A stretch of DNA of 64,000 nucleotides from an uncultured Latescibacterota bacterium (lineage in GTDB: Bacteria; Latescibacterota; UBA2968): positions 5,086,896 through 5,150,895 of the forward strand of contig OY282377.1 in the NCBI GenBank assembly GCA_958295785.1, in the 5' to 3' direction. The translations under genes and the position numbers were made by a program. Positions 7,174 to 53,776 of the stretch are shown in pieces; the first letter of the stretch is position 1; every line of letters begins with the position of its first letter. The notes under the pieces were generated by a model. It ran no database searches, was not told the DNA's origin, and worked only from the letters and a program-made list of their open reading frames with translations.

Positions 7174-7247
7174 GTTTAAGTGGGGAAGTGGTTGTGGGGG
7201 ATAAGGAGGTATGTTATGAATATATAGTATAGAGATGGATAAATCCT

Positions 7248-7405: not shown

Positions 7406-7455
7406 ACTGGATTTTGGTTCCAGGTATCGGGGTTCGAATCCCTGAGGGGCAACCA
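7382..7455 (+). tRNA. tRNA-Gln (anticodon TTG), CCA encoded
   Basis: Acceptor stem TGCCCCT/AGGGGCA, anticodon arm CTGGA-TTTTGGT-TCCAG giving TTG, T-arm GGGGTTCGAATCCC, then discriminator A and CCA at 7453-7455. The cloverleaf is complete. A strong hairpin terminator follows immediately. It lies in the same locus as a glnS remnant. Confidence 0.96.
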
Positions 7456-17510: not shown

Positions 17511-17573
17511 TTACTTGCTTCGCTGCGTTGTAAGCTGTGCCTGTGCGTTGATGAACTGTACCCCGTCCATCTA

Positions 17574-23242: not shown

Positions 23243-23262
23243 GGGGAAATTCTCAGTGGTTA

Positions 23263-31306: not shown

Positions 31307-31549
31307 ATGATGAGACGCGAAATATATTTGGACAACAATGCGACGACGCGGCCATTGCCCGAAGTGCGCGAGGCGATGATGCGCGTTTTGGGCGATGATT
31401 TTGGCAATCCGTCGAGCGCGCATTCAGCAGGCGACCGGGTACGCGAAGCAATGGTTGTAGCGCGTGAAGCCGTGGCAAAGTTGATCGGTGCCGCGCCCGA
31501 TCAAATCGTCTTTACCGGGAGTGGAACCGAGGCCAATAACACGGTCTAA
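31307..31549 (+). pseudogene. cysteine desulfurase, truncated after ~80 residues
   Basis: Starts MRREIYLDNNATTRPLPEVR (ATG 31307 or 31310) and continues GDDFGNPSSAHSAGDRVREA and IVFTGSGTEANNTV, the unmistakable NifS/IscS N-terminus. The family has about 380-400 residues; here a stop follows at once, and AAAAAAGGAGATAGC leads into the large STAND gene. The PLP-binding lysine and catalytic cysteine are absent, and no other part is in the window. The downstream gene appears to have replaced the rest. Confidence 0.9.
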
Positions 31550-31565
31550 AAAAAAGGAGATAGCA

Positions 31566-34500
31566 ATGCCATTGCCCGGCGGCCCTGCTGACAAAAGTGG
31601 AAATCGCTACGAACAGTGGTGGACGGTTTCTCAACTTATACGAATCATTGAAGGAGAGGCCGATAGTATCCGCATTGAGGATCCGACGGTCGATAAAGCT
31701 GAGTTTGTAATTACTGTTGGAGATCAGCGAGAGTTGCATCAGACAAAGCGCAGTAATCCAAGTGGCAAGTGGAGTTTGTCTGCCCTCCATGGCCTGCTCC
31801 AAACGATGTTCGATGTTGCAAAAGACAAGGCACGATTCATTTTTGTTTCGGGAAGTGATGCCCCTGAACTTAGAGAGCTAACCGAGCGGGCCAGGAATGC
31901 AAAGAATGTAGAAGAATTTGAGTCGGAATTTGTTCGTGCTCAGTCTAAAAAGAAAACTCTCCAACAACTCAAAGATATCTGGAACGCTGACACAGCCAAG
32001 GCATACACGATACTCAAACGGATCGAAGTCCGTACAATTGACGAGAGAGGAATTGAAGACCAAGTGCGGGCATCTTTGTCAGCACAGTTCCTTGCCGAAC
32101 CAAAGAACATTTGCGATGCGCTCCGTAGCTTTGCTGAAGATTCGATCCATCGAGACATCAACCGAAAGTACCTGATTTCGCATCTTCTGTCTAGTGGCTT
32201 CAAACGGCGGCAACTTGCCAAACCAAGTGACGCTCCTTTGCTCGTTGACAAAGCAACTAATCGCTATCTCAAAATTACACGCCAAAATCTGATTCGGGAC
32301 ACTCTCATTCCTCGCGCCTCAACTCGGGAACTCCTCGCCAAGATCGAGGAACATGAGAGCGGTTGCGACTGCGTCCTTACCGGCAAGGCAGGAGGCGGAA
32401 AGACGGGATGCGTCATTGAATTTGTGGAAGCTCTCCGTCAAAGCAATCGCGCTGTGCTCGCCTTTCGGTTGGATCGTATTGAGCCGGTAGCGTCAACCAA
32501 AGCCCTGGGCAAACAACTTGGACTTGAAGAATCGCCAACGCTCGTATTGGCCGCCGCGGCCGAATCACAGTCGCGTGAAGCGGTGCTCGTTATTGACCAA
32601 CTCGACGCTGTCAGCACAACTTCTGGTCGCAGTTCAAACTTTTTCGATGTGGTGGAAGACCTTTTGGACGAGGCGCGAGGTTTACTCAATGGCGTAAAAT
32701 TTCACGTTGTGGTGGTTTGCCGAGAGTTTGATTGGGAGAACGATCATCGCTTGCGCCGCCCTCTTGTAAAGGATCATGCAAAAGTCTCAGTCACTGATTT
32801 CTCTCTGGATGAAGTAAAATCAATGCTCAGAGGTAGCGGTTTCGACGACAATTTATTTGATGCCAAGCAATTGGAATTACTCCGTCTGCCGCAAAATCTC
32901 TCCCTATTTCTCGACACGAATTACGATCCCAACTCACGCCCACCGTTTTTCTCACAAAAAGACCTGTTTGATAGCTACTGGAAGGCAAAGCGGCAAGCGG
33001 TTAAGGATCGCACTAATTCCTCATCCGACGATTGGATGGATGTGATTCAGGTGCTTTGCAATAAAATGACCGAATCACAGCAACTCTCAGTATTGAGAGA
33101 GCCGCTGGACGCCTTCTCGCCCGATTACCTCAATGCGATGGCGTCAGAGGGCGTGCTCTCTTATGATGAAAACCGTTATGGCTTTGGACATGAGGCATTT
33201 TTCGACTACTGCTTTGCCCGTATCTTTGTGTCAAAAAATGAATCTTTGACAGAGTTTCTCACAAAGTCAGAGCAACACCTGTTTTACAGAGCACAAGTGC
33301 GGCAAGTTCTCATTTATCTGCGCGATGCTGATTTAGAGCGGTATTGCAAAGAACTCAGCGCGTTGCTGACGGATGACAAGATTCGCTGTCACCTAAAGGA
33401 CCTTGCTATTGCCGTGGCTGTTGAGGTTCCCAATCCCAAAGAAAACGAATGGGATGTGCTCGCGCCTTGGATCGAATCCGAGCTCCAAGCAATCAAAAGC
33501 GGTCAGCCGAATCCGGACAAATTTGCGTCTTTGGTCTGGAACCGGTTTTTCTTTTCCCAATCTTGGTTTCAGATCGCAGACCGCAAGGGCCTCATCGCCG
33601 ACTGGCTCGCTTCCGAAAATGATCATCTCGTCGATAGGGGCGTGAACTATGTTCGGCTTCATCATGAGCACTCAGGCGACAGAGTGGCTGAACTTCTGGA
33701 GCCATTTTTAGGAAAAGGTGGCGATTGGCCTCGAAGGTTTAACGAGGTCATGCAATTTGCTGATCCTTCAAACAGCCGAAGATTTTTTGATTTGTTCTTG
33801 ACGTTAATAGACAATGGCACCTTGGATGACACCGATACGAACAGCAATTTCGGGTTGGTATCGCATAGATTGGAACAGGCGCGTCCCGATTGGATTCCAG
33901 AAGTGGTCGCGCATTGGTTGCAGAGGCGAGCCTCCGTTATCCGAAATAATAAGGACGATAAAGGAGAACTCAACTGGTACAACTTCTTCAATTCCCATAA
34001 TGGTCAGGCAAATAATATCTACGACTCTGCATCTAAAACTCCTGAAGAATTTGTGCAACATGTTCTTCCAGTGGTCCTAGAAATAGTTGATGAAGCGACT
34101 GTCCATAAGAAGGAAAACACGCCGCCAAAGCGCGATGCAGTGTGGTGGCGAGTAGATTGGTTTGACAGTGAATATATCTCAATTGACCAAGCGTGTATAA
34201 ATGGACTTGCTGTGGCGGTGGAGAAACTCGCGGAACAGAAGTCAGAGCGTATTGGCGCGATTCTGGCGGACCTTCGGAGCCGAGATACTTACGTCGCAAA
34301 TTTTCTTTTGCTTCGGGCCTATACAGCCGGTGCAAAGCACTTTGCCGATGATGCTGTTTCCGAACTCTGCAACAAAACTTGGCGTTTTCAATGCGGTTAT
34401 TCCAGTAGTCCTCGCTGGGTAGCGATTCAGTTGATTAAGGCGGTTACTCCGCTTTGTTCTGAAGAGAACCGCGCAAGGCTTGAAAAAGCAATTTTAGCTC

Positions 34501-36116
34501 ATGTCCCAAATTGGGAGCGTAGTCCTCAAGGGTATAAATCGAGAGGGCAGGCTTGTTTTGAGTTGTTATCGGGCATACCGACTGAGTTCCGTAGCGAAGT
34601 TGCTAAGAAGCGTTATGCAGAGCTTGAACGAAAATTTAAAGCACCTCCATCTCCTCCGGGAGCCATAGAAGGCGGCACTGTTGTCTCTCCAATTGAAGAG
34701 TCAAAAGCGGAGAAGATGACGGATGAGCAATGGCTTAAAGCGATCAAAAGGTATGATTCGGAGATAGAACCTTTTGGGAAGGATCCCTTAAAGGGTGGTG
34801 CTCGGGAACTTGCAAGAATGTTGCAAGAATTTGTGACGAGAGAACCGGAACGATTTGCCCGTTTGAGTCTCAAGTTTCCATCAAACACGAATCCCTTTTA
34901 TATGACGTACACGCTCTTAGGTCTAAAACAAACAGAAGGATTAACCGATCTCAAACTGGATGTGTGTCGCAAGGCGTATTCAGAATCCCGTGCTGAGTAT
35001 GGAAAGGAAATTGCTGACTTGTTAGGCTCTATCGAGGAGTCGCTTCCCGACGACGCTGTACAAAGGCTTGACTGGTTAGCGACAGAACACCCCGAGCCAC
35101 AAAAGAAGTTATGGAATGAGGAAGCCACGGGCGGCACACCCTACTATGGAGGAGATGTACTTACTGCTGGTATCAACACGACACGCGGGCGTGCCGCTGA
35201 AGCGATTCGCAATCTCATTATACGAGATGCTACCTATGTTGAGCGGTTTCGCGCCACAATCGAAAAATTGAGTGGCGACAAAAGCATTGCCGTTCGTTCC
35301 TGTGCGGCCTCCGTGCTTTTATACGTCACCAATAGCGATTGGGAATTTGCTTTAGCGCAATTTGCCAAGCTCATTGAATTTCAGATCAGCCAAACTGACG
35401 GTGACCGCTTACTCGCGACTCCTTACATCGAACATTTTATCCATCATGGACTGCGCGAGCACTTTGATCGCCTTCAAGGTGTTGTCCAACGCATGTTGCG
35501 ATCAAAACTGCCCGAGATAAGTGAAATTGGTGCTCGGCTGGCCAGTCTCGCTGTTCTTTATCATCACGACGAAGCGGAAAATCTTGTGGAAGAAGCTCTC
35601 ACGGGCAATCCGTCCCAGAGACTCGGAGTCGCTAAGGTAGCATCTGCCAACATAGGCCAAGCGGATTTCCGACAATGGTCGGAACAGCAACTTCTGCGAC
35701 TTTTCAATGATAGCGATGAGAAGGTACGTCGAGAAGTTGCAATGTGTTTCCGTAGCCGTAGCTTGGAAGGGCAATCTCTGGAATCCTACGAAAATATGAT
35801 CGTCAAATTTTGCGATAGCGCGGCCTACCGAGAAAACTCGTCTTCCATACTCTACGCGCTTAAGGAATCTTCACATCGCCTGCCGGGTATCACGCATGTT
35901 GTATGCGAAAAATTTTTAGAACGGTTTAGCGACGAGGCGAGAGATATTCGCACAGGGCGAGCGGCAGATGTCCCGGACGTGGCAAAACTGATTGTTAGGA
36001 CATATCACCAACATCAAAAGGACAAGTGGGCTTCTCGGTGTCTCGACTTAATAGACCTGATGTGTCTCGAAAGAATGTCCGATATTAGTCGCAGTCTAAG
36101 CGAATACGAAAGGTGA
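31566..36116 (+). CDS. Avs-like STAND NTPase with N-terminal DUF4297/Cap4-type nuclease domain
   Basis: 1516 aa; ATG 31566 after AAGGAG. Residues ~1-130 look like a PD-(D/E)XK nuclease of the DUF4297/Cap4 type: SGNRYEQWWTVSQLIRIIEG, KAEFVITVGDQREL and HQTKRS with Q59-x-K61. A P-loop follows at G273 (TGKAGGGKTG) with Walker B near 344 (AVLVIDQLDAVS), then a long helical C-terminal half of about 1000 residues, probably HEAT/TPR-like repeats. This is the architecture of antiviral STAND proteins: a phage protein would bind the repeats, and the nuclease degrades DNA. It is more AT-rich than flanking genes and sits in a broken cysteine-desulfurase gene. Confidence 0.7.
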   Translation: MPLPGGPADKSGNRYEQWWTVSQLIRIIEGEADSIRIEDPTVDKAEFVITVGDQRELHQTKRSNPSGKWSLSALHGLLQTMFDVAKDKARFIFVSGSDAPELRELTERARNAKNVEEFESEFVRAQSKKKTLQQLKDIWNADTAKAYTILKRIEVRTIDERGIEDQVRASLSAQFLAEPKNICDALRSFAEDSIHRDINRKYLISHLLSSGFKRRQLAKPSDAPLLVDKATNRYLKITRQNLIRDTLIPRASTRELLAKIEEHESGCDCVLTGKAGGGKTGCVIEFVEALRQSNRAVLAFRLDRIEPVASTKALGKQLGLEESPTLVLAAAAESQSREAVLVIDQLDAVSTTSGRSSNFFDVVEDLLDEARGLLNGVKFHVVVVCREFDWENDHRLRRPLVKDHAKVSVTDFSLDEVKSMLRGSGFDDNLFDAKQLELLRLPQNLSLFLDTNYDPNSRPPFFSQKDLFDSYWKAKRQAVKDRTNSSSDDWMDVIQVLCNKMTESQQLSVLREPLDAFSPDYLNAMASEGVLSYDENRYGFGHEAFFDYCFARIFVSKNESLTEFLTKSEQHLFYRAQVRQVLIYLRDADLERYCKELSALLTDDKIRCHLKDLAIAVAVEVPNPKENEWDVLAPWIESELQAIKSGQPNPDKFASLVWNRFFFSQSWFQIADRKGLIADWLASENDHLVDRGVNYVRLHHEHSGDRVAELLEPFLGKGGDWPRRFNEVMQFADPSNSRRFFDLFLTLIDNGTLDDTDTNSNFGLVSHRLEQARPDWIPEVVAHWLQRRASVIRNNKDDKGELNWYNFFNSHNGQANNIYDSASKTPEEFVQHVLPVVLEIVDEATVHKKENTPPKRDAVWWRVDWFDSEYISIDQACINGLAVAVEKLAEQKSERIGAILADLRSRDTYVANFLLLRAYTAGAKHFADDAVSELCNKTWRFQCGYSSSPRWVAIQLIKAVTPLCSEENRARLEKAILAHVPNWERSPQGYKSRGQACFELLSGIPTEFRSEVAKKRYAELERKFKAPPSPPGAIEGGTVVSPIEESKAEKMTDEQWLKAIKRYDSEIEPFGKDPLKGGARELARMLQEFVTREPERFARLSLKFPSNTNPFYMTYTLLGLKQTEGLTDLKLDVCRKAYSESRAEYGKEIADLLGSIEESLPDDAVQRLDWLATEHPEPQKKLWNEEATGGTPYYGGDVLTAGINTTRGRAAEAIRNLIIRDATYVERFRATIEKLSGDKSIAVRSCAASVLLYVTNSDWEFALAQFAKLIEFQISQTDGDRLLATPYIEHFIHHGLREHFDRLQGVVQRMLRSKLPEISEIGARLASLAVLYHHDEAENLVEEALTGNPSQRLGVAKVASANIGQADFRQWSEQQLLRLFNDSDEKVRREVAMCFRSRSLEGQSLESYENMIVKFCDSAAYRENSSSILYALKESSHRLPGITHVVCEKFLERFSDEARDIRTGRAADVPDVAKLIVRTYHQHQKDKWASRCLDLIDLMCLERMSDISRSLSEYER

Positions 36117-39122: not shown

Positions 39123-40103
39123 ATGGCAAATGTCCAGACGTACTTTAACAAGTTTCATGATACCATCAGGAGGAGTTACGCTGACAACCGCACTCTGAGG
39201 GATAAGAGGGATTTGCTTTTGAAGGATTTGCGAGATAGTCTGCGAAGGTACTTCCAAGCCTATACAAGAACTCCGAGATGCGATATGTTTAATCAGGGAA
39301 GTTACGCGATGGGTACGGGTATTGAACCGCTTCCCAGTGAAGATTATGATATTGATGTCGGATTGGTTTTTCATATTTCAAATGTCAACTATTCACCTAT
39401 CCAAGTCAAACAGTGGGTTTATGAGGCATTGGAATCTGGGAACAGAACGGTAGAGTACAAACGTCCTTGCATAAGAGTTCAATATCATCAGGCCGGAGCG
39501 GAAGCCTATCATGTTGATTTTGCCGTCTATTCAGGAAAAGACTATAACCCGGATAATCAAACCTATCTGGCGAAAGGCTTTATAGGTTCAAAACCAGAAA
39601 ATCAAGTTTGGGAAAATTCAGAACCGAATCGACTTATAGAAGTCTTCCAACAAAAATTTCACAATCAGGAAAAACATCGCGACCAATTTAGACGAGTCAT
39701 ACGCTTTCTGAAAAGGTGGAAAGACGTTAATTTTTCTTTTCCAGGGAACGACCGTCCAACCGGAATTGCGATGACAGCGTGTGCCATGAACTGGTTTCAG
39801 GTAGGAACTGTTTATAATCCCAATGATGGAAAATGGTACTATGATGATTTAACAGCACTCAAAAATCTTACTAGATCAATTATCAACCAGTTTAATCTTT
39901 GGTCAGGTCGCATGAGTGTCCAACTACCTGTCCCGCCATCCAATGATCTGTTTGAGAAAATGAGTGACAGGCAGATGGAGAACTTCAAAAACAGGCTTGC
40001 AACACTCGTGAATCATTTAACTCAGGCGGAAGGAACTTTTGACACGGCTTCGGCCTGTCGCATTTTACAGCACATTTTCGGAGATGACTTTCCATCCCCA
40101 TAA
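39123..40103 (+). CDS. CD-NTase (cGAS/DncV-like nucleotidyltransferase), CBASS
   Basis: 326 aa; ATG 39123 after AAAGGA. The nucleotidyltransferase signature is complete: G59-S60 in NQGSYAMGTG, the D76-x-D78 pair in SEDYDIDVGLVF, and a third Asp at 132 in YHVDFAVY. The SMODS-type C-terminal helices follow. On phage infection such enzymes make a cyclic di- or trinucleotide. The product cannot be deduced. The effector gene lies 28 bp downstream. No Cap2/Cap3 or Cap6/Cap7 genes are next to it, so this is a minimal type I-like layout. Confidence 0.9.
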   Translation: MANVQTYFNKFHDTIRRSYADNRTLRDKRDLLLKDLRDSLRRYFQAYTRTPRCDMFNQGSYAMGTGIEPLPSEDYDIDVGLVFHISNVNYSPIQVKQWVYEALESGNRTVEYKRPCIRVQYHQAGAEAYHVDFAVYSGKDYNPDNQTYLAKGFIGSKPENQVWENSEPNRLIEVFQQKFHNQEKHRDQFRRVIRFLKRWKDVNFSFPGNDRPTGIAMTACAMNWFQVGTVYNPNDGKWYYDDLTALKNLTRSIINQFNLWSGRMSVQLPVPPSNDLFEKMSDRQMENFKNRLATLVNHLTQAEGTFDTASACRILQHIFGDDFPSP

Positions 40104-40131
40104 CAAACAAGACCGAAAGGAATTCAGACCT

Positions 40132-41292
40132 ATGGTTGCTAAAAAGGAATCGAAACCCAAGATTAACCGTAAAAAGGTGCCAGAGCATACTCGGCTAAAA
40201 TTATGGGTCAAGTCAGCAGGGCGTTGCGAATTTAGTGGATGTAACGAACCCGTTTGGCGCAATGACTTGACGTTGAATGACGGAAATTTTGGAGAAGTGG
40301 CTCATATTATTGCGGCAAGAGAAGATGGCCCGAGAGGTAGTGAAGATTCGGCAAATTTGCAAATCGATTTTTCCAACCTCATGCTCTTGTGTCAACGGTG
40401 CCATAAGGAGATTGACGATAACCCTGAGAAATATCCAGCAGAGTTGTTGCGCCAGTGGAAACAGGAACATGAGAACAGAATTGAGACTCAAACAAGCTAT
40501 TCAGAGGATATTCATAAATCTACGGTTGTGTTGTTCACTGTCAAAATTAAAGACCGGATTACTCCAATTAACTCTGAAGCCTACCGCAACGCAATGTCCC
40601 CCAAATATCCAGTTGGCAAAGGAATTAAAATTGACAATCAGGATTTTGACCGTCATGGTGGGGAAGCTGACTGGGCTGCTTATGCGAGAGTCATAGAGAA
40701 AAAAATCAAATCGCATTTTGAAGAAGGAATAGATGAACAAGCGATTAAACATATCTCCGTGTTTGCTATTGGGCCTATGCCACTTCTGATGTTTTTGGGT
40801 AAATGCATCGGCGACACCATTCCAGCGGATTTATACCAAGCACACAGAAATATTGACGATACGAGTCGGACTTGGTCATGGTGCGAGGAACAAGAAAAGC
40901 AGCCTTTTTACTTTGTGAACCCCATTTGCGTCAATGAAAATAGTGATAAGGTTGCAATCATATTGGCATTAAGCGATGCAATCAAAAAAAATAAATATGC
41001 TAATTTAGTCGATAAAACTTTTAGCCTTTATGAGATAACTATCGAAAATCCGTCTCCACATTTTTTGAAAAATCCTAAGCAACTAGAACGTTTCAGTAAT
41101 GAGTACAGGAAGTTACTCAATGAGGTTCAAGCTACTCACGGGCGTCGTTGCAAAGTCTTCATTTTACCCGCAGTCCCTGTATCAATTGCGGTTGAATGTG
41201 GACGGGTTATTTTGCCAACAAAGGATCCAGAGATTTTCGCGTGTGAATATTATGATCAGGGTGGTTTTAGAAAAGTTCTAAAAATAAACTGA
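40132..41292 (+). CDS. Cap5: HNH-SAVED CBASS effector
   Basis: 386 aa; ATG 40132 with GAAAGG upstream. The N-terminal HNH has C32-x4-C37 (GRCEFSGCNEP), H58 in EVAHIIAAREDG, N82 and C87-x2-C90-H91 (LLCQRCHKEID). From about residue 145 the SAVED-type fold follows: FAIGPMPLLMFLGKCIGDT, DLYQAHR and FILPAVPVSIAVECGRV. SAVED binds the cyclic nucleotide and the HNH domain then cuts double-stranded DNA. Together with the CD-NTase it forms a complete two-protein CBASS. Confidence 0.9.
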   Translation: MVAKKESKPKINRKKVPEHTRLKLWVKSAGRCEFSGCNEPVWRNDLTLNDGNFGEVAHIIAAREDGPRGSEDSANLQIDFSNLMLLCQRCHKEIDDNPEKYPAELLRQWKQEHENRIETQTSYSEDIHKSTVVLFTVKIKDRITPINSEAYRNAMSPKYPVGKGIKIDNQDFDRHGGEADWAAYARVIEKKIKSHFEEGIDEQAIKHISVFAIGPMPLLMFLGKCIGDTIPADLYQAHRNIDDTSRTWSWCEEQEKQPFYFVNPICVNENSDKVAIILALSDAIKKNKYANLVDKTFSLYEITIENPSPHFLKNPKQLERFSNEYRKLLNEVQATHGRRCKVFILPAVPVSIAVECGRVILPTKDPEIFACEYYDQGGFRKVLKIN

Positions 41293-41330: not shown

Positions 41331-42563
41331 ATGAAAAATCCACACGAATTAATTCCCGCACTGAGAGCTTGCATGGGCGATTGGATCTATTATGTAACAT
41401 TTCTACAGATGGATCAAATCGCTGACAGGATCCATCTTGCTCAAGAAATCCATTCAAGTGCAATACTTAAGGATATGATCCAGCATCAGATTACCAACAG
41501 GTCGGCTCAAATCTCGGAATACTTGTTATCACAGCCTCAGCGATTTTTCAATGCCCTCATCGTCGGGGTCTATGGCGGTGCGCCCGAATGGTATGAATTG
41601 AAAATTGGCAAAAATCCCCAGTTTGAGGCAGACGCGCTCCCGAAAGCGTTGGATGGCGTCCTCGGCTTCCTTCGGCTCAATGGGACAGAGACCCTCTTTG
41701 CAATTGATGGACAGCACCGCGTGCAAGGCATGAAACATGCCCTTGAGAAAAACGAGGAATTGAAGCGCGAAGAAGTGAGCGTCATCTTCGTCGCACATCG
41801 CAACGATCAATCCGGGATGGAGCGGACGCGCCGTCTTTTTTCTACGTTGAATCGGTATGCCAAACCCGTCAGCAAAAGCGAAATCATCGCGTTGGATGAG
41901 GACGACATCATCGCAATTACGACGCGGGAATTGGTTGAGAAACATCCGCTTTTTCAAGAGAAAATTTCACTGGCAAAAACAAAAGCGGTGGCAGTCAAAG
42001 ACAACAGGAGTTTCACAACGATCATTACCCTCTACGATGTCTTGGAAATTCTATTTAGAAAGAAGGATTGGAATAAATTTAAGAGGCAACGCCCAGAGGA
42101 TGAGATTATCGCTGAATATTATGCCCAAAGTGAACAATTCTGGAACGCGATGGCCGAACATTTTCCACCGCTAAAGAAAGTTCGCAACAGCCGCCCGGGC
42201 GATAATATCGCTGGACATTATCGCCATAGAAAGGGTGGACATCTGCTGTTTAGACCTGTCGGGCTTCTCATTGTCGCCTATGTTGTCAGGCACGCCAAGG
42301 ATTCGGGTTTGAGCGAAAGCGAAGCGATCAAACGGATCTCGAATATCTCGATGGAACTGACAGACGAACCCTGGGTAGGCTTGCTTTGGGACAACACCAA
42401 TCAGCGCATGATCACCGCATCGCCGAACCAAAAAGTGGCAAAGCAACTCCTTTTTCATCGCATCGGTGGCGACCTTCGGGAAATGAAAACGAGCGAACAA
42501 GACCTTCGGCGGGAATACGCGGGGTTGCTCAACAAAATGGAATCGGACGTGCGCTTAGACTGA
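41331..42563 (+). CDS. DndB-like DGQHR-domain protein
   Basis: 410 aa; ATG 41331, 38 bp after Cap5, with a weak ribosome site. The signature FAIDGQHRVQGMKHAL has D126-G-Q-H-R130, and RRLFSTLNRYAKPVSKSE matches the DndB group linked to DNA phosphorothioation. Same strand and spacing make it the third gene of the CBASS operon. The first ~200 nt are AT-rich like the CBASS genes while the rest is GC-richer. No dndACDE genes are in the window. A bidirectional-type hairpin at 42621 follows. Confidence 0.75.
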   Translation: MKNPHELIPALRACMGDWIYYVTFLQMDQIADRIHLAQEIHSSAILKDMIQHQITNRSAQISEYLLSQPQRFFNALIVGVYGGAPEWYELKIGKNPQFEADALPKALDGVLGFLRLNGTETLFAIDGQHRVQGMKHALEKNEELKREEVSVIFVAHRNDQSGMERTRRLFSTLNRYAKPVSKSEIIALDEDDIIAITTRELVEKHPLFQEKISLAKTKAVAVKDNRSFTTIITLYDVLEILFRKKDWNKFKRQRPEDEIIAEYYAQSEQFWNAMAEHFPPLKKVRNSRPGDNIAGHYRHRKGGHLLFRPVGLLIVAYVVRHAKDSGLSESEAIKRISNISMELTDEPWVGLLWDNTNQRMITASPNQKVAKQLLFHRIGGDLREMKTSEQDLRREYAGLLNKMESDVRLD

Positions 42564-42620
42564 AATGCGTTGCCCAACACGTCGGTGGCAGATCGAAATA
42601 TTGAAAACATTGACAATGTG

Positions 42621-42649
42621 AAAAGCCCGATGTTGTCTATCGGGCTTTT
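42621..42649. terminator. hairpin terminator between the DGQHR gene and cas6
   Basis: AAAAGCCCGAT and ATCGGGCTTTT around a 7-nt loop, symmetrical so usable from both strands. Related copies are at 49611 and 51685. Confidence 0.88.
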
Positions 42650-42730
42650 GGTTTGTGGCCGAAGGGATCGGCGATGATTTGGGAGTTCGCCGAGGATCTG
42701 CGGGATTTGATCGGGATTCGCGGATTCGCC

Positions 42731-43672
42731 TCACAGCAGCGCGTATTGTCCCATGCCAAAGCTGGTCCACTTGCCCACATGCACGGGCATGCCCAAGGCC
42801 AGCAGCAGGTGGAATCGCTCGAGGTCGCCTTCAAACGCCACATCTCCCGTAAAACCGCTTATCTGCATGCGGCGGTTCTTGCGGTTTGAATACCGTTCCC
42901 ATGTGCGCCAGGTCAAATTGTGATCCGCAGTTTGCACGCCTTTTGCATGTGCAATCCAGTCGCCGTAATTCAAATCCGGCGGCCCATCGCCGTGAAATGC
43001 GGACAGCGCAGAATACCGCCGCAACAGCGTGCGGATCAACACGGAAAAATTCAATCCCCGTTGCAACACGCGGTCCGCTTTGAGTTGTGTGGGGGTGAAA
43101 AAGGAAAGACGCACCCGTGACCCCATCGGACGAGGCATCACATCTATGGCACGCAGGCGCGGCACATCGCGTTGCAACATCTCGCTTTGCCCATCGTAAA
43201 CCGACTGCCACGATCCATCGGCATCTAGCGCCTCGCCCAAAATCAAATCGCACTTGCCGCGCCCGCGCCCAACGCCGGTTTCCCCCAAACGCTGAAACGC
43301 ATAGATAAAATACGGCACGTAATCCAACGCCTTGCCAATCAGCGTCAAACCGATGGCAAATCCATCGCCGGGCGCGTAATCGGTCTTGGTCTCCAGCGGC
43401 GGTTCGATCACATAGGGATGCGGCGCGTTCTGATAGCCGCGAAAAATGCCTTGTGCATTATCCACAGGGGTATCAAATATGTATGGATACACGCATTGCG
43501 CCCGAACCAAACACCGCGCACAATCCCCGTGTTGCACAATGCACACCGCCCGCTTAAACGCAATGCCAAAAGCCCCTCGAAATGTCGATCCCTTATACGG
43601 CGGCAGGCGCAATTGTTGCCGCGCCTGAAAGTGCAATCGCATCTGCGCGAAGTCCAAGTCGAATTTGAACAT
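42731..43672 (-). CDS. cas6: Cas6-type CRISPR RNA endonuclease (RAMP), copy A
   Basis: 313 aa; ATG 43672 after AAAGGAGATATTG. The N-terminus RLPPYKGSTFRGAFGIAFKR and the CARCLVRAQCVYPYIFDTP cysteine cluster are typical of the PF10040-like Cas6 group. The C-terminal glycine-rich loop is GMPVHVGKWTSFGMGQY. Such enzymes cut CRISPR precursor RNA. There is no CRISPR array and no other cas gene in the window, so this is a solitary cas6 or a repurposed RAMP nuclease. It is divergent from cbiX and duplicated at 51795-52736. Confidence 0.85.
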   Translation of the reverse strand: MFKFDLDFAQMRLHFQARQQLRLPPYKGSTFRGAFGIAFKRAVCIVQHGDCARCLVRAQCVYPYIFDTPVDNAQGIFRGYQNAPHPYVIEPPLETKTDYAPGDGFAIGLTLIGKALDYVPYFIYAFQRLGETGVGRGRGKCDLILGEALDADGSWQSVYDGQSEMLQRDVPRLRAIDVMPRPMGSRVRLSFFTPTQLKADRVLQRGLNFSVLIRTLLRRYSALSAFHGDGPPDLNYGDWIAHAKGVQTADHNLTWRTWERYSNRKNRRMQISGFTGDVAFEGDLERFHLLLALGMPVHVGKWTSFGMGQYALL

Positions 43673-43849
43673 CAATATCTCCTTTGGCCTTGCTGGACGG
43701 TCATGTTGCGACCCATATTAAACGCGCCGGTGTTCAAACTGTTATCCTCAACTCGCCTGAAGAAGTTGCCCTTGAAAGCATGTCGGTTCTGCGGTATCAT
43801 AAATCTGTTCAACAGCCACTCGCAGTCAGCCCTATTTCATACATTCGCT

Positions 43850-44209
43850 ATGCGTACCGCGCTCCTCATTGTCGATCACGGCTCTAGACGTGAAGAAGCC
43901 AATCAAATGCTTCACCGCGTTGCCGGCATCCTGCGCCAAAAACGCCCCCAACTCATCGTTCAAATCGCGCACATGGAACTGGCCGAACCGACGATCAGGC
44001 AGGGCATTGAGGCATGCGTGCATGAGGGCGCGACTGAAATCGTGGTTCACCCCTATATGCTCTCGCCCGGACGCCACGCCACCCAAGACATCCCGCGCAT
44101 GGCAACAGAAGCAGCGGCCGCATATCCCGCTGTCACCATCCGCGTCACCGCGCCCCTTGGCCTGCACGAGAAACTCGGCGAAGTCATTCTCCAACGCGCT
44201 GGTTTGTAA
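43850..44209 (+). CDS. cbiX: short CbiX-type sirohydrochlorin chelatase, copy A
   Basis: 119 aa; ATG 43850 without a clear ribosome site. Small single-domain CbiX form: H10 in LLIVDHGSRREEAN and H67 in VVHPYMLSPGRH are the metal-binding pair. Known role: inserts cobalt (or iron/nickel) into sirohydrochlorin for B12 or siroheme. No other cobalamin gene is nearby. It is transcribed divergently from cas6 and duplicated with it at 53371. The second copy differs by Pro to Leu in AAAAYPAVTI. Confidence 0.88.
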   Translation: MRTALLIVDHGSRREEANQMLHRVAGILRQKRPQLIVQIAHMELAEPTIRQGIEACVHEGATEIVVHPYMLSPGRHATQDIPRMATEAAAAYPAVTIRVTAPLGLHEKLGEVILQRAGL

Positions 44210-44269
44210 AAAAGTGAGAGGGAGAAGCAACCACAGATGAACGCAGATGAAAGGCTAGTGAGATTGTAA

Positions 44270-44738
44270 TACCAATTTGCTCTCAAGTTGTCCGTATCCT
44301 GCCTCCCATCAGGTATGAATGAGGAATGAGGAACAGACGTTCCGTAGAGATCATGCGTTGCTCGTCTCAAGCGTTTGGTTCTGCCCCCTCGTTTGTTGCC
44401 TTTGATGCGTTGGCTACGCCTGTGCCTACGGCGTGCGGCGACCTACTTTTTTTCAAAAGCAAAAAAAGTAGGCAAAAAATGCCGCTCTCAAACGCCGAGA
44501 GGCTGGCACAGCGCAAAACGCTTTTGTAACAGAACGACATGCGTTGGCCTGCAAGGTGGGTTGCAAGATGAATGTTCGTTGCGAGACGGCCTTGCGCGCT
44601 GTGCGTGATGGTTTTGTCTGATGGTCTTTTGGGAGGGCATTTTTTTAATGGCTTTTCTGAATGACTGGATAATGTCAAGGGAATCATTTGCGGGTCGCAT
44701 ATCGCATCACATTAGGTCAACAGAAAATCAAATTGGTA
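44270..44738. repeat. 454-bp-type MITE-like repeat, copy c (complete, 469 bp)
   Basis: Perfect 10-bp ends TACCAATTTG and CAAATTGGTA, target duplication TAA (44267-44269 and 44739-44741). The internal hairpin CCTACTTTTTTT / AAAAAAAGTAGG is fully paired. It is followed without a gap by the 75-bp MITE. Confidence 0.9.
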
Positions 44739-44741
44739 TAA

Positions 44742-44816
44742 GACGCTGTCTTAAAACGAAAGATGGCCCCTCCCCGCAACGAGGGGGGTAGGTTCCGATA
44801 ATTTTAAGACAGCCTC
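44742..44816. repeat. 75-bp MITE
   Basis: Ends GACGCTGTCTTAAAA and the inverted TTTTAAGACAGCCTC (14 of 15 match), flanked by TAA on both sides. Half copies are at 19442 and 28901. Confidence 0.85.
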
Positions 44817-46094: not shown

Positions 46095-46933
46095 TCCATC
46101 TATCCAGTTGATCGGACACTTGAAAACCAAAAGAGGAATCGCCAGCTAACGGTTGTCCGAAAATTTTGAGGTTGCTCAACCAATACCAAGGCTATCTTCA
46201 TTTCTGTTGTTCGGCAATTTCAGCAACAGGACGGATTGGCGAATTAGAAGTCACAAAACGATATAACTCGCCAAAGGAGGTGTATATGGTTCATTGGATT
46301 TCCAGCCCGCATCCTATTTCCGACATTCGAGACTGGAGCAAAGCCAATCGTCTCGAACTTCAACCAGATTTTCAAAGACGCGCAGTGTGGTCTGCGTCTG
46401 CCCGCATCATGTTGATGGATACTATCCTGCGTCGTATCCCAATGCCCAAGATTTTTTTGGCTAATACTGTTCGTGACGGTTCTACGTATCGCGTCGTTAT
46501 TGACGGTCAACAGCGTATTTCAGCAATTCTCGATTTTCTTCGAGATGGCTTCGCGTTAAATCATCCGTTCACGGGAAAAAACAAAGGCAAAACGTTTTCA
46601 GAATTAGACCCCGAAACACAGGACAGTTTTTTGAGCTACCAAATTGATTTTAATGAGGCAGTAAAACCGACAGACGAGCAAGTGCGTAAAGTATATGCTC
46701 GCGTAAATAAGTACACCGTGCCGCTTACAAAACAAGAACTGAGACGAGCCGATTTTCCCGGCGACTTTCTCAAGGTCTCGGAAGAACTCGCCGTGAACGA
46801 CTATTTTGACGAAATAGGTATTTTCACGCCAGCTACGCGACGTAAATACGGCGATGTCGAGTACGTATCAGAATTATTAGCAGCTATGATTGGTGGCATA
46901 CAAAACAAAAAAACATCTCTCGACGATTTCTAT

Positions 46934-48025
46934 TAGGACTTACGCATGCTAAGTTAAAAAAGGGTGCAATTCCGTAAAATTTATCACTTTGAGGAGGTGT
47001 CAATGCGCCAACCGACGCGTTTGGATTACTGTCAGTATCTGCTTAGCAGTCCCCTCAACTATACCCTGACCCATTTCGCCGACCATAGCGAAGGGTTCAG
47101 TCATGATATGATCAACCGCTATCTCGCTGGTGATCGTATCCCACCCCGCTTGGTGTGGGAACACGTCAAAGACCACATCGCGCTGACGCCCAAAGGCTAT
47201 GTGATCTTTGATGACACGGTTTTAGACAAGCGACACGCGCGCAAGATCGCGTTAGTGCGTCGTCAATATAGCGGCAACGCCCAAGGCGTCATCAATGGCA
47301 TTGGGGTGGTCACATGTGTCTCTGTCCATCCGCAACAGGATCGGTTCTGGCTGATTGACTATCGGATTTATGATCCGCAAGGCGATGGCAAAACCAAATT
47401 GGATCATCTCAAGGACATGCTCTCTGGGTTGGTCTATCAGAAGGACCTTCCTTTTACCGGGGTCTTGATGGACAGTTGGTATGCGACCAAAACGGTCATG
47501 CTACACATAGAGCAGATGCAAAAAACCTATTATTGTCCTCTCAAGACAAACCGGCGCGTGGACGATTCGGCAGGCACAATCCCCTACCAGCGCGTAGATA
47601 GCTTAACTTGGACGAAAGCGCAACGCAAACAAGGCAAGTCCATTAAAATCAGAGGGTTTCCCAAAGACCACAAAGTGAAATTATTCCGGGTGGCGTCTTC
47701 TGCCAGACGCACGGCGTATGTCGTAACCAACGACCATGCTCAAAACGATTCTTCAGTGGTACAACAGGTGTGTCACCAAAGATGGAAAATTGAGCAATTT
47801 CACCGCGAAGTCAAACAAGTGACCGGGCTTGAAAAGTGTCAATGTCGATTGGCACGCATTGTACGAAATCATATTGGGTGTGCGATGTTAGTTTGGATTC
47901 GACTTGAGCAAGTGGCCTATCAAACAGGACAAACCATTTATCAAGTCAAATACCGGGGGGTGGCTGACTTCTTGAGACAACAACTCAAAGCACCTGATAT
48001 TCCAATGGTGATTGCGTAAGTCCTA
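46934..48025 (+). mobile_element. IS701-like insertion sequence, copy C (1092 bp)
   Basis: Identical end sequences to copy A; target duplication TCTAT at 46929-46933 and 48026-48030. It inserted in the sense direction within the DUF262 gene. Confidence 0.95.
47003..48019 (+). CDS. IS701/IS4-like DDE transposase, copy C
   Basis: 338 aa; ATG 47003 follows GAGGAGGTGTCA. It differs from copy A by only a few residues (for example SVHPQQD for YVNPQQD, TKAQRKQ for TQADRKQ). The three acidic catalytic positions (VIFDDT, VLMDSWYA, WKIEQFHRE) are intact. Probably active, and the likely source of recent mobility of this family in the window. Confidence 0.93.
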   Translation: MRQPTRLDYCQYLLSSPLNYTLTHFADHSEGFSHDMINRYLAGDRIPPRLVWEHVKDHIALTPKGYVIFDDTVLDKRHARKIALVRRQYSGNAQGVINGIGVVTCVSVHPQQDRFWLIDYRIYDPQGDGKTKLDHLKDMLSGLVYQKDLPFTGVLMDSWYATKTVMLHIEQMQKTYYCPLKTNRRVDDSAGTIPYQRVDSLTWTKAQRKQGKSIKIRGFPKDHKVKLFRVASSARRTAYVVTNDHAQNDSSVVQQVCHQRWKIEQFHREVKQVTGLEKCQCRLARIVRNHIGCAMLVWIRLEQVAYQTGQTIYQVKYRGVADFLRQQLKAPDIPMVIA

Positions 48026-48658: not shown

Positions 48659-49528
48659 ATGAGTAGCCAACTCTATTTTGATCCGGAGCATTTACGCCGA
48701 GGTAACTTTTTCAACTTGAAAAGCGAAATTCGGACTGAAGAGGGATATCCCTACGAGATTGAAGACTGGATTGGCCGGGGGGGAAACGCAACGGTATTCA
48801 GCGGCCGACAGCGCAGCACAGGTGAAGAATGTGCAATTAAATTCCTTATGAATACGGGATGGAGAAATACCAAACGGTTCCTGCGAGAAGTAAAGTTGCT
48901 CAAATCGATGTCCGGAGATCACATTACGCGATATCATGGCACTGGTCGAGTTACCGTCAGGCATCACAAGGGTTCAAGAGATAATCAGTTGCCCTTCGTG
49001 ATAATGGAATTGGCTGATAGCAATTTGCAGGACGTGATGCGCGAGGAAGGGCCGATGAGTTACGAGCGATATGCCGGCCAATTTCGCGGTCTTGCAGGTG
49101 CGTTGGCCTCCTTGCATGAGCGGGCAGTGCATCGGGATATTAAACCAGAAAATATTTTGGTTGCAGGCGAACGATGGCTCCTAAGCGATTATGGGCTTTG
49201 TACTTTTGTCAATCCGGATGAAGAAGATTTGACGCCCGAAGGGCAGAATGTTGGGCCGAAATTTTGGCTTTCTCCAGAAGCTCACAATCGACGACTGGGG
49301 TGCAATGATGAAATTAGCGCGGCATCTGATGTGTTTCAAATGGGTGCCATTTTTTGGTACGTGGTGACCGGCCGCCAGCCTGTTGGCATTGTTACAGAAG
49401 ACGACTGGCTAGGAGGCCCCGAGAAACTTTTTTGTTTGCTACATCGTTCGCTCTATCATGACTTTGAGAAACGACCACAGAATGGAATCGAGTTTTTAAC
49501 AGATTTGGCGGATGCACTGAGTCAGTAG
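48659..49528 (+). CDS. eukaryotic-like Ser/Thr protein kinase paired with DUF262
   Basis: 289 aa; its ATG overlaps the DUF262 stop by 8 nt (translational coupling). All kinase landmarks are present: glycine loop IGRGGNATVFSG (38-49), K61 in ECAIKFL, E77 in FLREVK, catalytic loop VHRDIKPEN with D160, a DYG instead of DFG at 177-179, SPE at 205-207 and D224 in ASDVFQMG. There is no transmembrane helix or extracellular sensor domain, so the kinase is soluble and compact. The natural partner or substrate is likely the upstream DUF262 protein. A hairpin terminator lies at 49611. Confidence 0.9.
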   Translation: MSSQLYFDPEHLRRGNFFNLKSEIRTEEGYPYEIEDWIGRGGNATVFSGRQRSTGEECAIKFLMNTGWRNTKRFLREVKLLKSMSGDHITRYHGTGRVTVRHHKGSRDNQLPFVIMELADSNLQDVMREEGPMSYERYAGQFRGLAGALASLHERAVHRDIKPENILVAGERWLLSDYGLCTFVNPDEEDLTPEGQNVGPKFWLSPEAHNRRLGCNDEISAASDVFQMGAIFWYVVTGRQPVGIVTEDDWLGGPEKLFCLLHRSLYHDFEKRPQNGIEFLTDLADALSQ

Positions 49529-49787: not shown

Positions 49788-51008
49788 ATGTTATTTCACA
49801 GACTGAAGTTTTCGGGGCTTTTGTCCTTTGGGCCAGAGGGGATCGACTTGCCGATGCAACCGCTGAATGTCCTGATCGGCCCAAACGGTTCGGGCAAATC
49901 CAATTTGCTCGAGGCGATCTCGTTGTTCCACGCTGCGCCGCGCAGCATCTTGGAACCCATCTCGCGCATGGGCGGCATGCGCGAGTGGCTGTGGAAAGGC
50001 CCTGATGCGCCGAATGCGATCACCATGGAGGCGATGGTCGACTTCCCATTGGGCGGCATGTTGCGGCATGCATTGACCCTGTCTGACTTTATCGGTCACC
50101 TCAAGGTGGTTGACGAACGCGTCGAACCCACCGAAGCGCGTGCTGACGAGTGGTTATCCTACTATCGCCCTCCTCAAGACAAGCGCGTGGCATTAAAAAT
50201 GGATACAGAGATTCCAAAATTAGAGATTCCAGGGGTGGCACAGTTAGAATCGGAGAAGCACGGGGTCAACGTGCGCCCGGGTGCTGTTGAGTTCGCGGAC
50301 TGGTTTCAACCGGAAGAATCCCTACTCGCCCATGTTGCCGCTCCGAACTATTGGGCACTTTGGTATCTGAAGCGGCAGTACACGCGCATTCGTCTTTACC
50401 GGAACTGGTCGTTCGGGCCTGGCGCGAATTTACGCCAACCATGCAATGCACACGCCCGCAGCGATTTTCTGGATGAGGGCGCGGAGAACTTGCCGCTCGT
50501 GTTATCCCAGTTGCACGGAATGCACAAGAGAAAGCTCCTAAGCGCGTTGGGCAAGCTATTCGATGGGATTGTCGATGTGCAATGTCCCGTGACGGGCGGC
50601 ACAGTGGCGTTGTTTTTGGAAGAAGAAGGTGACCGTTCAATTCCCGCCACCCGTCTCTCGGATGGGACGCTGCGTTACTTGAGTCTGTTGGCGGTCTTGT
50701 TGCATCCCGAGCCGCCGCCTTTGATCTGTATCGAAGAGCCGGAATTGGGGCTACACCCCGATTTGCTACCCACCTTGAGCGACTTGATGTGCGAAGCGTC
50801 AAAGCGCAGTCAAGTGATCGTTACGACGCATTCCGATGTGCTTGTAGATACGCTGACAGACAAGCCTGAGAGCGTTGTGATCTGCGAAAAGCACGATGGA
50901 CAGACCGAGATGCGACGTCTCGAAAAGAACGATCTGGCGAAGTGGCTGGAGAAATACAGACTCGGCGATCTTTGGACTTCGGGTGAGTTGGGAGGCAATC
51001 GGTGGTAA
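49788..51008 (+). CDS. AAA/ABC-type ATPase of the AAA15/AAA21 group (PARIS AriA-like)
   Basis: 406 aa; ATG 49788 after GAGGAATAAAT. Walker A GPNGSGKS at 31-38, then an insertion-rich middle, an ABC-like signature RLSDGTLRYLSLLAVL, Walker B ICIEEPELGLHP and the switch His in VIVTTHSDVL. This is the RecF/OLD-like ATPase form used in defence pairs with TOPRIM partners (OLD, PARIS). The next gene overlaps by 7 nt. Function inferred: ATP-loaded sensor that holds or releases the DUF4276 effector. Confidence 0.85.
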   Translation: MLFHRLKFSGLLSFGPEGIDLPMQPLNVLIGPNGSGKSNLLEAISLFHAAPRSILEPISRMGGMREWLWKGPDAPNAITMEAMVDFPLGGMLRHALTLSDFIGHLKVVDERVEPTEARADEWLSYYRPPQDKRVALKMDTEIPKLEIPGVAQLESEKHGVNVRPGAVEFADWFQPEESLLAHVAAPNYWALWYLKRQYTRIRLYRNWSFGPGANLRQPCNAHARSDFLDEGAENLPLVLSQLHGMHKRKLLSALGKLFDGIVDVQCPVTGGTVALFLEEEGDRSIPATRLSDGTLRYLSLLAVLLHPEPPPLICIEEPELGLHPDLLPTLSDLMCEASKRSQVIVTTHSDVLVDTLTDKPESVVICEKHDGQTEMRRLEKNDLAKWLEKYRLGDLWTSGELGGNRW

Positions 51009-51598
51009 GAGCAACGCTATACATTGAGGGCGGTGGCAAGGGACGAGACCTCAGAGCGCGTTTCCGCGAGGGCTGGAACAAATTTTTCAAATCCGCTGGC
51101 CTTGATGGCAAGACGAAGCTCGTGTGGGGCGGGTCGCGAGAACGGACTTTCCACCTCTTTGACAAGGCCATCTCGGAAGGTCGCCCTGGCGTGGTTCCGC
51201 TCCTGCTCGTCGATAGCGAGGATCCTGTTGCAGCGGGACATACAGTGTGGCAGCACTTGTCCGCCAGCGACGGTTGGCAGCAGCCTTCCAACGCAGGCGA
51301 CGATCAGGCATTTCTGATGGTTCAATTCATGGAGACTTGGTTCTTGGCCGATGGCGATGCGTTGCGAAGGTACTTCGGCACGCGGTTTAGGCAAAACGCA
51401 CTCAGGAAATGGCCCGACTTAGAGGCCGTGCCCAAGCCGGTAGTCCTCAATGCGCTCGCACGCGCTACCGCCCCATGCACCAAACGCTATTCCAAGGGCA
51501 AGGTCTCATTCGAATTGCTGGGGCAAATTGACCCCGCTCGCGTGGAAGCCGCATGTCCGCATGCCGAGGCACTTTTGAATCGGTTGCGGAAGTTGTGA
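51002..51598 (+). CDS. DUF4276 TOPRIM-like protein (putative effector)
   Basis: 198 aa from a GTG overlapping the ATPase stop. TOPRIM-type acidic residues: E9 in LYIEGGGKG and D71-x-E73-D74 in LLLVDSEDPVA. MVQFMETWFLAD is the usual DUF4276 helix. In PARIS the partner of the ATPase (AriB, DUF4435) is a TOPRIM nuclease; DUF4276 is a comparable fold, so nuclease activity is a reasoned guess. The 25 bases after the stop lead straight into the copy-B cas6 module. Confidence 0.85.
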   Translation: MVRATLYIEGGGKGRDLRARFREGWNKFFKSAGLDGKTKLVWGGSRERTFHLFDKAISEGRPGVVPLLLVDSEDPVAAGHTVWQHLSASDGWQQPSNAGDDQAFLMVQFMETWFLADGDALRRYFGTRFRQNALRKWPDLEAVPKPVVLNALARATAPCTKRYSKGKVSFELLGQIDPARVEAACPHAEALLNRLRKL

Positions 51599-51684
51599 TG
51601 GACTGGCGAAGAGTTCATTCACAATACGCGGGGTTGCTCAACCCATCGGTGGCAGATCGAAATATTGAAAACATTGACAATGCG

Positions 51685-51713
51685 AAAAGCCCGATGTTGT
51701 CTATCGGGCTTTT
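51685..51713. terminator. hairpin terminator, copy B
   Basis: AAAAGCCCGAT and ATCGGGCTTTT, as at 42621. Lies between the DUF4276 gene and cas6 copy B. Confidence 0.85.
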
Positions 51714-51794
51714 GGTTTGTGGCCGAAGGGATCGGCGATGATTTGGGAGTTCGCCGAGGATCTGCGGGATTTGATCGGGATTCGCGGATTCGCC

Positions 51795-52736
51795 TCACAG
51801 CAGCGCGTATTGTCCCATGCCAAAGCTGGTCCACTTGCCCACATGCACGGGCATGCCCAAGGCCAGCAGCAGGTGGAATCGCTCGAGGTCGCCTTCAAAC
51901 GCCACATCTCCCGTAAAACCGCTTATCTGCATGCGGCGGTTCTTGCGGTTTGAATACCGTTCCCATGTGCGCCAGGTCAAATTGTGATCCGCAGTTTGCA
52001 CGCCTTTTGCATGTGCAATCCAGTCGCCGTAATTCAAATCCGGCGGCCCATCGCCGTGAAATGCGGACAGCGCAGAATACCGCCGCAACAGCGTGCGGAT
52101 CAACACGGAAAAATTCAATCCCCGTTGCAACACGCGGTCCGCTTTGAGTTGTGTGGGGGTGAAAAAGGAAAGACGCACCCGTGACCCCATCGGACGAGGC
52201 ATCACATCTATGGCACGCAGGCGCGGCACATCGCGTTGCAACATCTCGCTTTGCCCATCGTAAACCGACTGCCACGATCCATCGGCATCTAGCGCCTCGC
52301 CCAAAATCAAATCGCACTTGCCGCGCCCGCGCCCAACGCCGGTTTCCCCCAAACGCTGAAACGCATAGATAAAATACGGCACGTAATCCAACGCCTTGCC
52401 AATCAGCGTCAAACCGATGGCAAATCCATCGCCGGGCGCGTAATCGGTCTTGGTCTCCAACGGCGGTTCGATCACATAGGGATGCGGCGCGTTCTGATAG
52501 CCGCGAAAAATGCCTTGTGCATTATCCACAGGGGTATCAAATATGTATGGATACACGCATTGCGCCCGAACCAAACACCGCGCACAATCCCCGTGTTGCA
52601 CAATGCACACCGCCCGCTTAAACGCAATGCCAAAAGCCCCTCGAAATGTCGATCCCTTATACGGCGGCAGGCGCAATTGCTGCCGCGCCTGAAAGTGCAA
52701 TCTCATCTGCGCGAAGTCCAAGTCGAATTTGAACAT
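51795..52736 (-). CDS. cas6: Cas6-type CRISPR RNA endonuclease (RAMP), copy B
   Basis: 313 aa, reading the same as copy A; the few base differences (for example near 52458, 52680 and 52703) look silent. Same ATG with AAAGGAGATATTG, same CARCLVRAQC cluster and GKWTSFGMGQY loop. With the reading frame fully kept, either the duplication is very recent or both copies are under selection. A MITE sits 48 bp upstream, in the spacer shared with cbiX, and separates the two divergent genes in this copy. Confidence 0.85.
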   Translation of the reverse strand: MFKFDLDFAQMRLHFQARQQLRLPPYKGSTFRGAFGIAFKRAVCIVQHGDCARCLVRAQCVYPYIFDTPVDNAQGIFRGYQNAPHPYVIEPPLETKTDYAPGDGFAIGLTLIGKALDYVPYFIYAFQRLGETGVGRGRGKCDLILGEALDADGSWQSVYDGQSEMLQRDVPRLRAIDVMPRPMGSRVRLSFFTPTQLKADRVLQRGLNFSVLIRTLLRRYSALSAFHGDGPPDLNYGDWIAHAKGVQTADHNLTWRTWERYSNRKNRRMQISGFTGDVAFEGDLERFHLLLALGMPVHVGKWTSFGMGQYALL

Positions 52737-52784
52737 CAATATCTCCTTTGGCCTTGCTGGACGGTCATGTTGCGACCCATATTA

Positions 52785-53238
52785 TACTAAATTGATTTTC
52801 AGTTGTCCGTATCCTGCCTCCCATCAGGGAGGGATGAGGAATGAGGAATGGCGAACAGACTTAAGTAAAGCGTTTGGTTCTGCCTCCACGTTGGTTGCCT
52901 TTGATGCGTTGGCTACGCCTGTGCCTACGGCGTGCGGCGACTTCCTTTTTTTCAACAGCAAAAAAAAGGAAGCAAAAAATGCCGCTCTCATGCGCCGAGA
53001 GGCTGGCACAGCGCAAATCGCTTTTGTAACAGAACGCCATGCGCTGGCCTGCAAGGTGGGTTGCAAGATGAATGTTCGTTGCGAGACGGCCTTGCGCGCT
53101 GTGCGCGATGGCATGATCTGATGGTCTTTTGGGATGGCCTGGTTGCAATGGCTTCTCTGAATGCCTGCGGAACGTCAAGGGAATCATTTGCGGGTCGCAT
53201 ATCGCATCACATTAGGACAACAGCTATTCAATTTGGTA
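52785..53238. repeat. 454-bp MITE-like repeat, copy d (with empty site in copy A module)
   Basis: Flanked by TTA (52782-52784 and 53239-53241). The corresponding uninterrupted site is CATATTAAACGCGCC in the copy A module near 43718. The ends are slightly degenerate (TACTAAATTG and CAATTTGGTA). The internal hairpin is CTTCCTTTTTTT / AAAAAAAGGAAG. Confidence 0.93.
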
Positions 53239-53370
53239 TTAGACGCGCCGGTGTTCAACTTGTTATCCCCAACTCGCCTGAAGAAGTTGCCCTTGAAAGC
53301 ATGTCGGTTCTGCGGTATCATAAATCTGTTCAACAGCCACTCGCAGTCAGCCCTATTTCATACATTCGCT

Positions 53371-53730
53371 ATGCGTACCGCGCTCCTCATTGTCGATCAC
53401 GGCTCTAGACGTGAAGAAGCCAATCAAATGCTTCACCGCGTTGCCGGCATCCTGCGCCAAAAACGCCCCCAACTCATCGTTCAAATCGCGCACATGGAAC
53501 TGGCCGAACCGACGATCAGGCAGGGCATTGAGGCATGCGTGCATGAGGGCGCGACTGAAATCGTGGTTCACCCCTATATGCTCTCGCCCGGACGCCACGC
53601 CACCCAAGACATCCCGCGCATGGCAACAGAAGCAGCGGCAGCATATCTCGCTGTCACCATCCGCGTCACCGCGCCCCTTGGCCTGCACGAGAAACTCGGC
53701 GAAGTCATTCTCCAACGCGCTGGTTTGTAA
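53371..53730 (+). CDS. cbiX: short CbiX-type sirohydrochlorin chelatase, copy B
   Basis: 119 aa; differs from copy A by one visible residue (AAAAYLAVTI). H10 and H67 metal ligands are retained. The 130 bases upstream of the ATG match copy A, but the MITE now separates this leader from cas6. Having two copies of a cofactor gene beside two copies of a RAMP gene is unusual. Co-duplication as a passenger is the simplest reading. Confidence 0.88.
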   Translation: MRTALLIVDHGSRREEANQMLHRVAGILRQKRPQLIVQIAHMELAEPTIRQGIEACVHEGATEIVVHPYMLSPGRHATQDIPRMATEAAAAYLAVTIRVTAPLGLHEKLGEVILQRAGL

Positions 53731-53776
53731 AAAAGTGAGAGGGAGAAGCAACCACTTGCGTCTTGTATCTTGCCTT

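Follow-up and report, generated by a model that had tools for sequence, protein, structure and literature searches.

A duplicated cas6 gene outside any CRISPR locus of a Latescibacterota genome probably encodes the displaced Cas6 of its type III systems

A cas6 gene that stands apart from CRISPR arrays and other cas genes raises the question of whether its product still processes CRISPR RNA or has turned to another substrate. We analysed a window of 64 kb, meaning the whole stretch of DNA under study, which spans positions 5,086,896–5,150,895 of one Latescibacterota contig of 5,660,449 bases (5.66 Mb) and holds two copies of such a gene (Table 1). The window Cas6 is very probably the pre-crRNA endoribonuclease of the type III systems of this genome, displaced from its operon, duplicated and acting in trans. 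The grounds for this reading are gene content, operon position in relatives, repeat identity, protein constraint and predicted fold. From these we infer cleavage, the cut site, the action in trans and the complex that is loaded.

Table 1. Positions in the window of the two cas6 copies, their divergent neighbours, the duplicated segment and the inserted repeat.
Feature	Position	Strand	Remarks
cas6 copy A	42731..43672	-	313 aa, ATG start; PF10040 and PADLOC Cas6; AlphaFold model
cas6 copy B	51795..52736	-	same protein as copy A
cbiX copy A (sirohydrochlorin chelatase family)	43850..44209	+	divergent neighbour; PF01903
cbiX copy B	53371..53730	+	99% identity
Duplicated segment, copy A	42569..44234	.	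uninterrupted; blastn of the window against itself
Duplicated segment, copy B	51633..53755	.	dispersed repeat interrupts it between cas6 and cbiX
Dispersed repeat (~454 bp) in copy B	52785..53236	.	TATTA on both sides; single TATTA in copy A

The surroundings of the gene were searched for CRISPR components. Whole-genome profile searches for Cas1 and RAMPs gave no match inside the 64-kb window, and ten cas profiles found nothing in the four pieces covering it. No cas gene was detected there with 36 ORFs from the genome's own cas loci (cas3, cas5, cas7 and cas8 included); their only three window matches, of 22–28 aa, were all to dispersed repeat, at places that also pair with one another when the window is compared with itself. 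K-mer spacing revealed no CRISPR array in the window, and the 37-nt repeat of this genome was absent from it even in degenerate form, with up to 11 mismatches of 37. In this genome, the window cas6 is not adjacent to type III genes or to an array. An earlier note on this DNA had reported two intact Cas6 copies and no array or other cas gene in the 64 kb. The intact copies are borne out by PF10040, PADLOC, the open reading frames and the identical proteins; the absence holds for the window and is untrue of the genome. Promoter and terminator scans gave counts at chance level.

A defence island spans window positions 31488–51598, with cas6 copy A inside it and copy B at its edge. It includes a PDC-M54A-like protein of 1542 aa (31488–36116), a CBASS-like pair made up of a CD-NTase-like protein (39123–40103) and a SAVED-HNH effector (40129–41292), a DndB-like protein (41331–42563), an NsnA-like protein (46166–46936), a PD-T4-6-like kinase (48659–49528) and a HEC-01A/B-like pair (49788–51598). 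At 2077–7406, the window also carries a nest of direct repeats, with alignments of 105–483 bp that are 89–99.6% alike.

The window protein matched PF10040 with 67.9 bits against a cut-off of 25, which places it in the Cas6-domain family, and the PADLOC Cas6 model PDLC01477 over residues 6–313 (E 4e-100). It missed the cut-off of the TIGR01877 cas6 equivalog (24.8 vs 58.65 bits). We therefore class it as Cas6 on the strength of PF10040, PADLOC and fold, and not as a member of TIGR01877. The two window copies were the only matches in the genome to PF10040, TIGR01877 or a 40-sequence subfamily profile. They were also the only matches of 14 Cas6 queries (tblastn, E ≤ 1e-3), and no cas6 remnants appeared in the other genome regions read. 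Copy A starts with the ATG at 43672, which fits the coordinates of the earlier note, with AAAGGAG directly 5′.

Solved Cas6 proteins have a tandem ferredoxin-like fold, and a glycine-rich loop close to the C terminus is a Cas6 motif. The AlphaFold model of the window Cas6 had a pLDDT of 89.7, and the first 32 rows of the Foldseek search with it were all Cas6 or Cas6-RT-Cas1. VIA-align gave Z scores of 21.8 to 6dd5_A and 20.2 to 6fjw, which shows the fold of solved Cas6. The glycine-rich C-terminal loop is present as HVGKWTSFGMGQY, and H298, G300, K301, F305, G306 and G308 are invariant in 40/40 relatives. Y26, K27, H85, H227, H298 and K301, likewise invariant in all 40, are candidate catalytic residues as judged from sequence. 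The protein has four cysteines (C44, C51, C54 and C60), which could, at a guess, bind a metal.

Cas1 and RAMP matches pointed to four regions of the genome. The type III-A operon at 26.6–37.7 kb contains PrimPol, cas1, cas10, csm2, csm3, csm4, csm5 and CARF-HEPN, has no cas6, and leads into an array in which the 37-nt repeat ATTTGGAAGTACTACCCGCCTACTGGGGTATTGAAAC recurs in about 60 units. The type III-D operon at 47–60 kb, with a CARF gene, cas2, cas10, csm3-like genes, a csx10-type cas5, csx19 and Csx1, also has no cas6. None of the 20 proteins scanned at the two loci matched any Cas6 model, and two of them had no match at all. The earlier note had conceded that its view of a solitary enzyme would fall if a type I or III operon lacking its own cas6 existed elsewhere in the genome; there are two, III-A and III-D. 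The genome also has a type I-B locus near 2.22 Mb and a type I-E locus near 4.1 Mb, with their own Cas6b and Cas6e, respectively, and each with its own repeat.

Across the rest of the genome, where the earlier note had suggested looking, there are three arrays of the one 37-nt repeat, with about 180 copies. They lie near 38–42.5 kb, near 1.446 Mb and at 3.992–3.998 Mb. The repeat core has 180 genome matches, of which 175 fall in the three array regions read (61, 42 and 72). The arrays at 1.446–1.449 Mb and 3.992–3.998 Mb stand apart from the type III operons, and a cas1 fragment match lies at 3,998,344, near the latter. Among the 168 spacers read in the three arrays, 163 were distinct. The repeat can form a UACCC/GGGUA stem with an AUUGAAAC tag at its foot. 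This stem is weak (−7.3 kcal/mol, z −0.66, 50 of 200 shuffles equally good) and was not used as support; its pairs are invariant among the repeats of the clade, so covariation cannot support it either.

The place of this gene in relatives was examined in 64 Latescibacterota genomes (Cas6 threshold E ≤ 1e-10). This Cas6 was found in 14 of them and RAMPs in nine: both in 8, Cas6 only in 6, RAMPs only in 1 and neither in 49. In three sister genomes, the Cas6 is 77–81% identical to the window protein and stands at the head of a type III locus. The gene order is cas6-cas10-csm2-csm3-csm4-csm5-CARF-array in G032 and the same in G030, where cas2 follows the array. In G038, a III-D operon comes after cas6, then further RAMPs and an array at 6,021,095. 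The arrays of all three bear ATCAGGAAGGATTACCCGACTACTGGGGTATTGAAAC, with one mismatch to the repeat of the present genome over the last 25 bases. Since the III-A and III-D operons here lack cas6 and the sister operons are headed by this Cas6, the window gene is best read as the Cas6 of a type III operon that has moved away.

At least four copies of the repeat core occur in 4/64 genomes (G000, G030, G032 and G038), all with a Cas6 of 77–100% identity. Type III genes and the cognate repeat co-occur with this Cas6 in the genome. Such a Cas6 is present in just one of the remaining 60, where it sits at the edge of a contig. The Fisher tests on the 64 genomes (p about 6e-6 and, for this repeat association, 8e-6) ignore kinship and are indicative only. 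The orthologue in G031 lies 290 bases from a contig end, too close to show its context. The repeat was matched twice in G034 and three times in G037, both without a Cas6 that passes the threshold. Different repeats, ending GGGGATTGAAAC, accompany a clade of Cas6 proteins of about 48–50% identity (G033, the second copy of G030, G046 and G050); in G033 and G030 its gene order is cas6-PrimPol-cas1-cas2. The one genome with RAMPs and without this Cas6 (G041) is a draft. Of the six with the reverse pattern (G002, G004, G007, G010, G031 and G055), three (G004, G007 and G010) show a cas1 or cas10 match that shares a contig with one of the genome's Cas6 genes, and the Cas6 match in G055 spans just half the protein.

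A scan of 84,980 genomes, one per species, turned up 322 relatives; the analysis went on with the best 80, sisters included. Among these best 80 of 322, all 24 loci whose flanks reached at least 7.5 kb on each side had a cas gene nearby, as did 35 of the 56 cut by contig ends. The quoted counts come from one round of profile building with controls (21/80 loci without a match; 20/80 with repeated rounds) and supersede single queries, which had found a cas gene or array at 52/80. No match was obtained in 12 of 13 control pieces, and the thirteenth (L064, from sister G031) holds a seemingly real cas1 and cas2. The 20–21 loci without a cas match all run into a contig end less than 7.5 kb away, on one side or both, and so give no evidence of solitary genes. 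Since every full-flank locus had a cas gene, the subfamily is a CRISPR gene, mostly of type III. The window copies are therefore exceptional in place, not in kind.

At the DNA level, the sister loci resemble this one over the gene itself and at most 14 bases upstream, including the ribosome-binding site; beyond these 14 bases, no similarity was found save for a dispersed repeat. The gene is 5.1 Mb along the contig from the III-A operon, or about 0.56 Mb if the contig is circular. At that operon, PrimPol-cas1 (L016:6596–9690, contig 26.6–29.7 kb) occupies the place that cas6 has in G030. The pair is 78–83% identical to that of G033 and G030; in these two genomes, the gene ahead of it is a different cas6, with a different repeat. 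This placement points to an exchange of adaptation modules. We infer that such an exchange took cas6 off the operon head while a copy was retained elsewhere. The relocation, the duplication and the PrimPol-cas1 exchange are local detail.

The dispersed element of about 454 bp in segment copy B separates cas6 from its former upstream region. Further window copies of it lie at 44286–44746, 23259–23705 and 17071–17513. By eye, the element has imperfect terminal inverted repeats, TACYAAATTGA...TCAATTTGGTA. The divergent partner of cas6, which the earlier note had called a chelatase gene, was identified as CbiX (PF01903, 107 bits). Of the 14 other family genomes searched, 13 had cbiX, once each. 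Five of these 13 also have this Cas6, and there cbiX is on another contig or 2.4 Mb off. At the three sister cbiX loci whose ORFs were read, it is flanked by sulfatase-like and transporter-like ORFs (names read from the ORF sequences). The cas6-cbiX divergence is thus not conserved in relatives and links the two genes in this genome only.

Other explanations were weighed against these data. It is unlikely that the 37-nt arrays are processed otherwise, by the I-B Cas6b, Cas6e, RNase E or another host nuclease, with the window copies as leftovers on their way out. The genome does encode Cas6b and Cas6e, cutting of the 37-nt repeat by the I-B Cas6b is conceivable in principle, and Cas6-independent type III processing is described in PMC8616872 and PMC3575380. 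However, the I-B and I-E repeats have no stem in common with the 37-nt repeat in predicted folds. Both window copies are intact, the three differences between them, few as they are, are all synonymous (0 non-synonymous), and every H, Y, K, R and C position without variation across 40 relatives is retained in the protein. The dN/dS of cas6 against four sisters is 0.09–0.15, a range similar to that of csm3 (0.16) and csm4 (0.15) against G030. A duplicated stand-alone Cas6 might also have gained its own regulation or a second substrate, so that the defence island, and not the cas operons, would set the supply of crRNA for the two type III complexes and the three arrays; we hold this to be quite improbable. 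A single gene, made to look double by an error of assembly, is very improbable. The sequence may be a metagenome assembly, like the sister records, and the segment copies are 99% alike, but a comparison of the two shows 7 substitutions in 1152 bases, 6 in 519 and the 454-bp insertion, and their flanks are unlike. An artefact would be compatible with the main conclusion and leave it untouched.

The chance that this Cas6 has been taken over to cleave a different structured RNA, for instance the 454-bp repeat hairpin or an RNA linked to cbiX, appears slight indeed. The 64 kb without a CRISPR neighbour and the 454-bp repeat near both cas6 copies speak for the idea, and the earlier note had proposed the poly-T/poly-A hairpin of that repeat as the substrate. 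This proposal fails. At least 40 copies of the family were scored across the genome (316 candidates), so its adjacency to cas6 is uninformative, and the ATTGAAAC and GGGTATTG motifs are absent from all four window copies. The cbiX link is confined to this genome, and the orthologues are type III operon genes. A recruited non-CRISPR RNase was rejected, as neither cbiX nor the 454-bp repeat offers it a conserved non-CRISPR neighbour or substrate. Of the two roles that the earlier note had offered for the nuclease, service to a distant array in trans is well supported and recruitment for other RNA is not.

For the displaced type III Cas6, the following course is proposed. A cas6 at the head of an operon would have been displaced into the defence island, and a later segmental duplication would have produced the two copies. 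Cas6 would be made from its own ribosome-binding site and then diffuse. In transcripts of the three arrays, it would bind the 37-nt repeat at its short UACCC/GGGUA stem and cut at the stem base, which would leave the 8-nt AUUGAAAC 5′ tag. The resulting crRNAs may load the III-A complex, the III-D complex or both. This genome offers a clean natural example in which the enzyme that processes type III RNA is uncoupled from its operon, and close relatives show the other order. It opens no new RNase class; the puzzle resolves after a genome-wide search, and a 'solitary' cas6 in a genome window needs to be read against the whole genome.

Trans-acting Cas6 for type III and detached cas6 genes are already described, and the arrangement is of an ordinary, known kind. 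Our literature search found no published account of this Latescibacterota case, which is no proof that it is unpublished. According to PMC3575380, cas6 sometimes stands as a lone gene apart from other cas cassettes, and the processing of one type III array needed none of the three Cas6 proteins tested there. The review PMC8616872 reports Cas6-independent processing of type III arrays by RNase E in Synechocystis and states that no cas6 homologues have been described for III-D. The case outlined in PMC12669027 is a type III effector operon without cas6 that is served by a Cas6 from elsewhere in the genome; there, Cas6 comes from another CRISPR-cas locus, whereas the window Cas6 is in no CRISPR locus. 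The closest solved structure is the Cas6 domain of the Marinomonas Cas6-RT-Cas1 (6dd5; complex 7kft), with Z 21.8, rmsd 2.9 over 252 residues and a profile E of 2e-4. That domain is fused to RT-Cas1, whereas the window Cas6 has no RT and is 19% identical over the aligned residues. The nearest likeness is to the Cas6 of the sister type III operons (OX638329.1, JAGWBW010000116.1 and JAJEAX010000071.1), which is a 77–81% identical protein and has the 37-nt repeat core TACCCG-CTACTGGGGTATTGAAAC in common, with one base different. In those records Cas6 comes first in the operon, whereas the window Cas6 is remote and duplicated.
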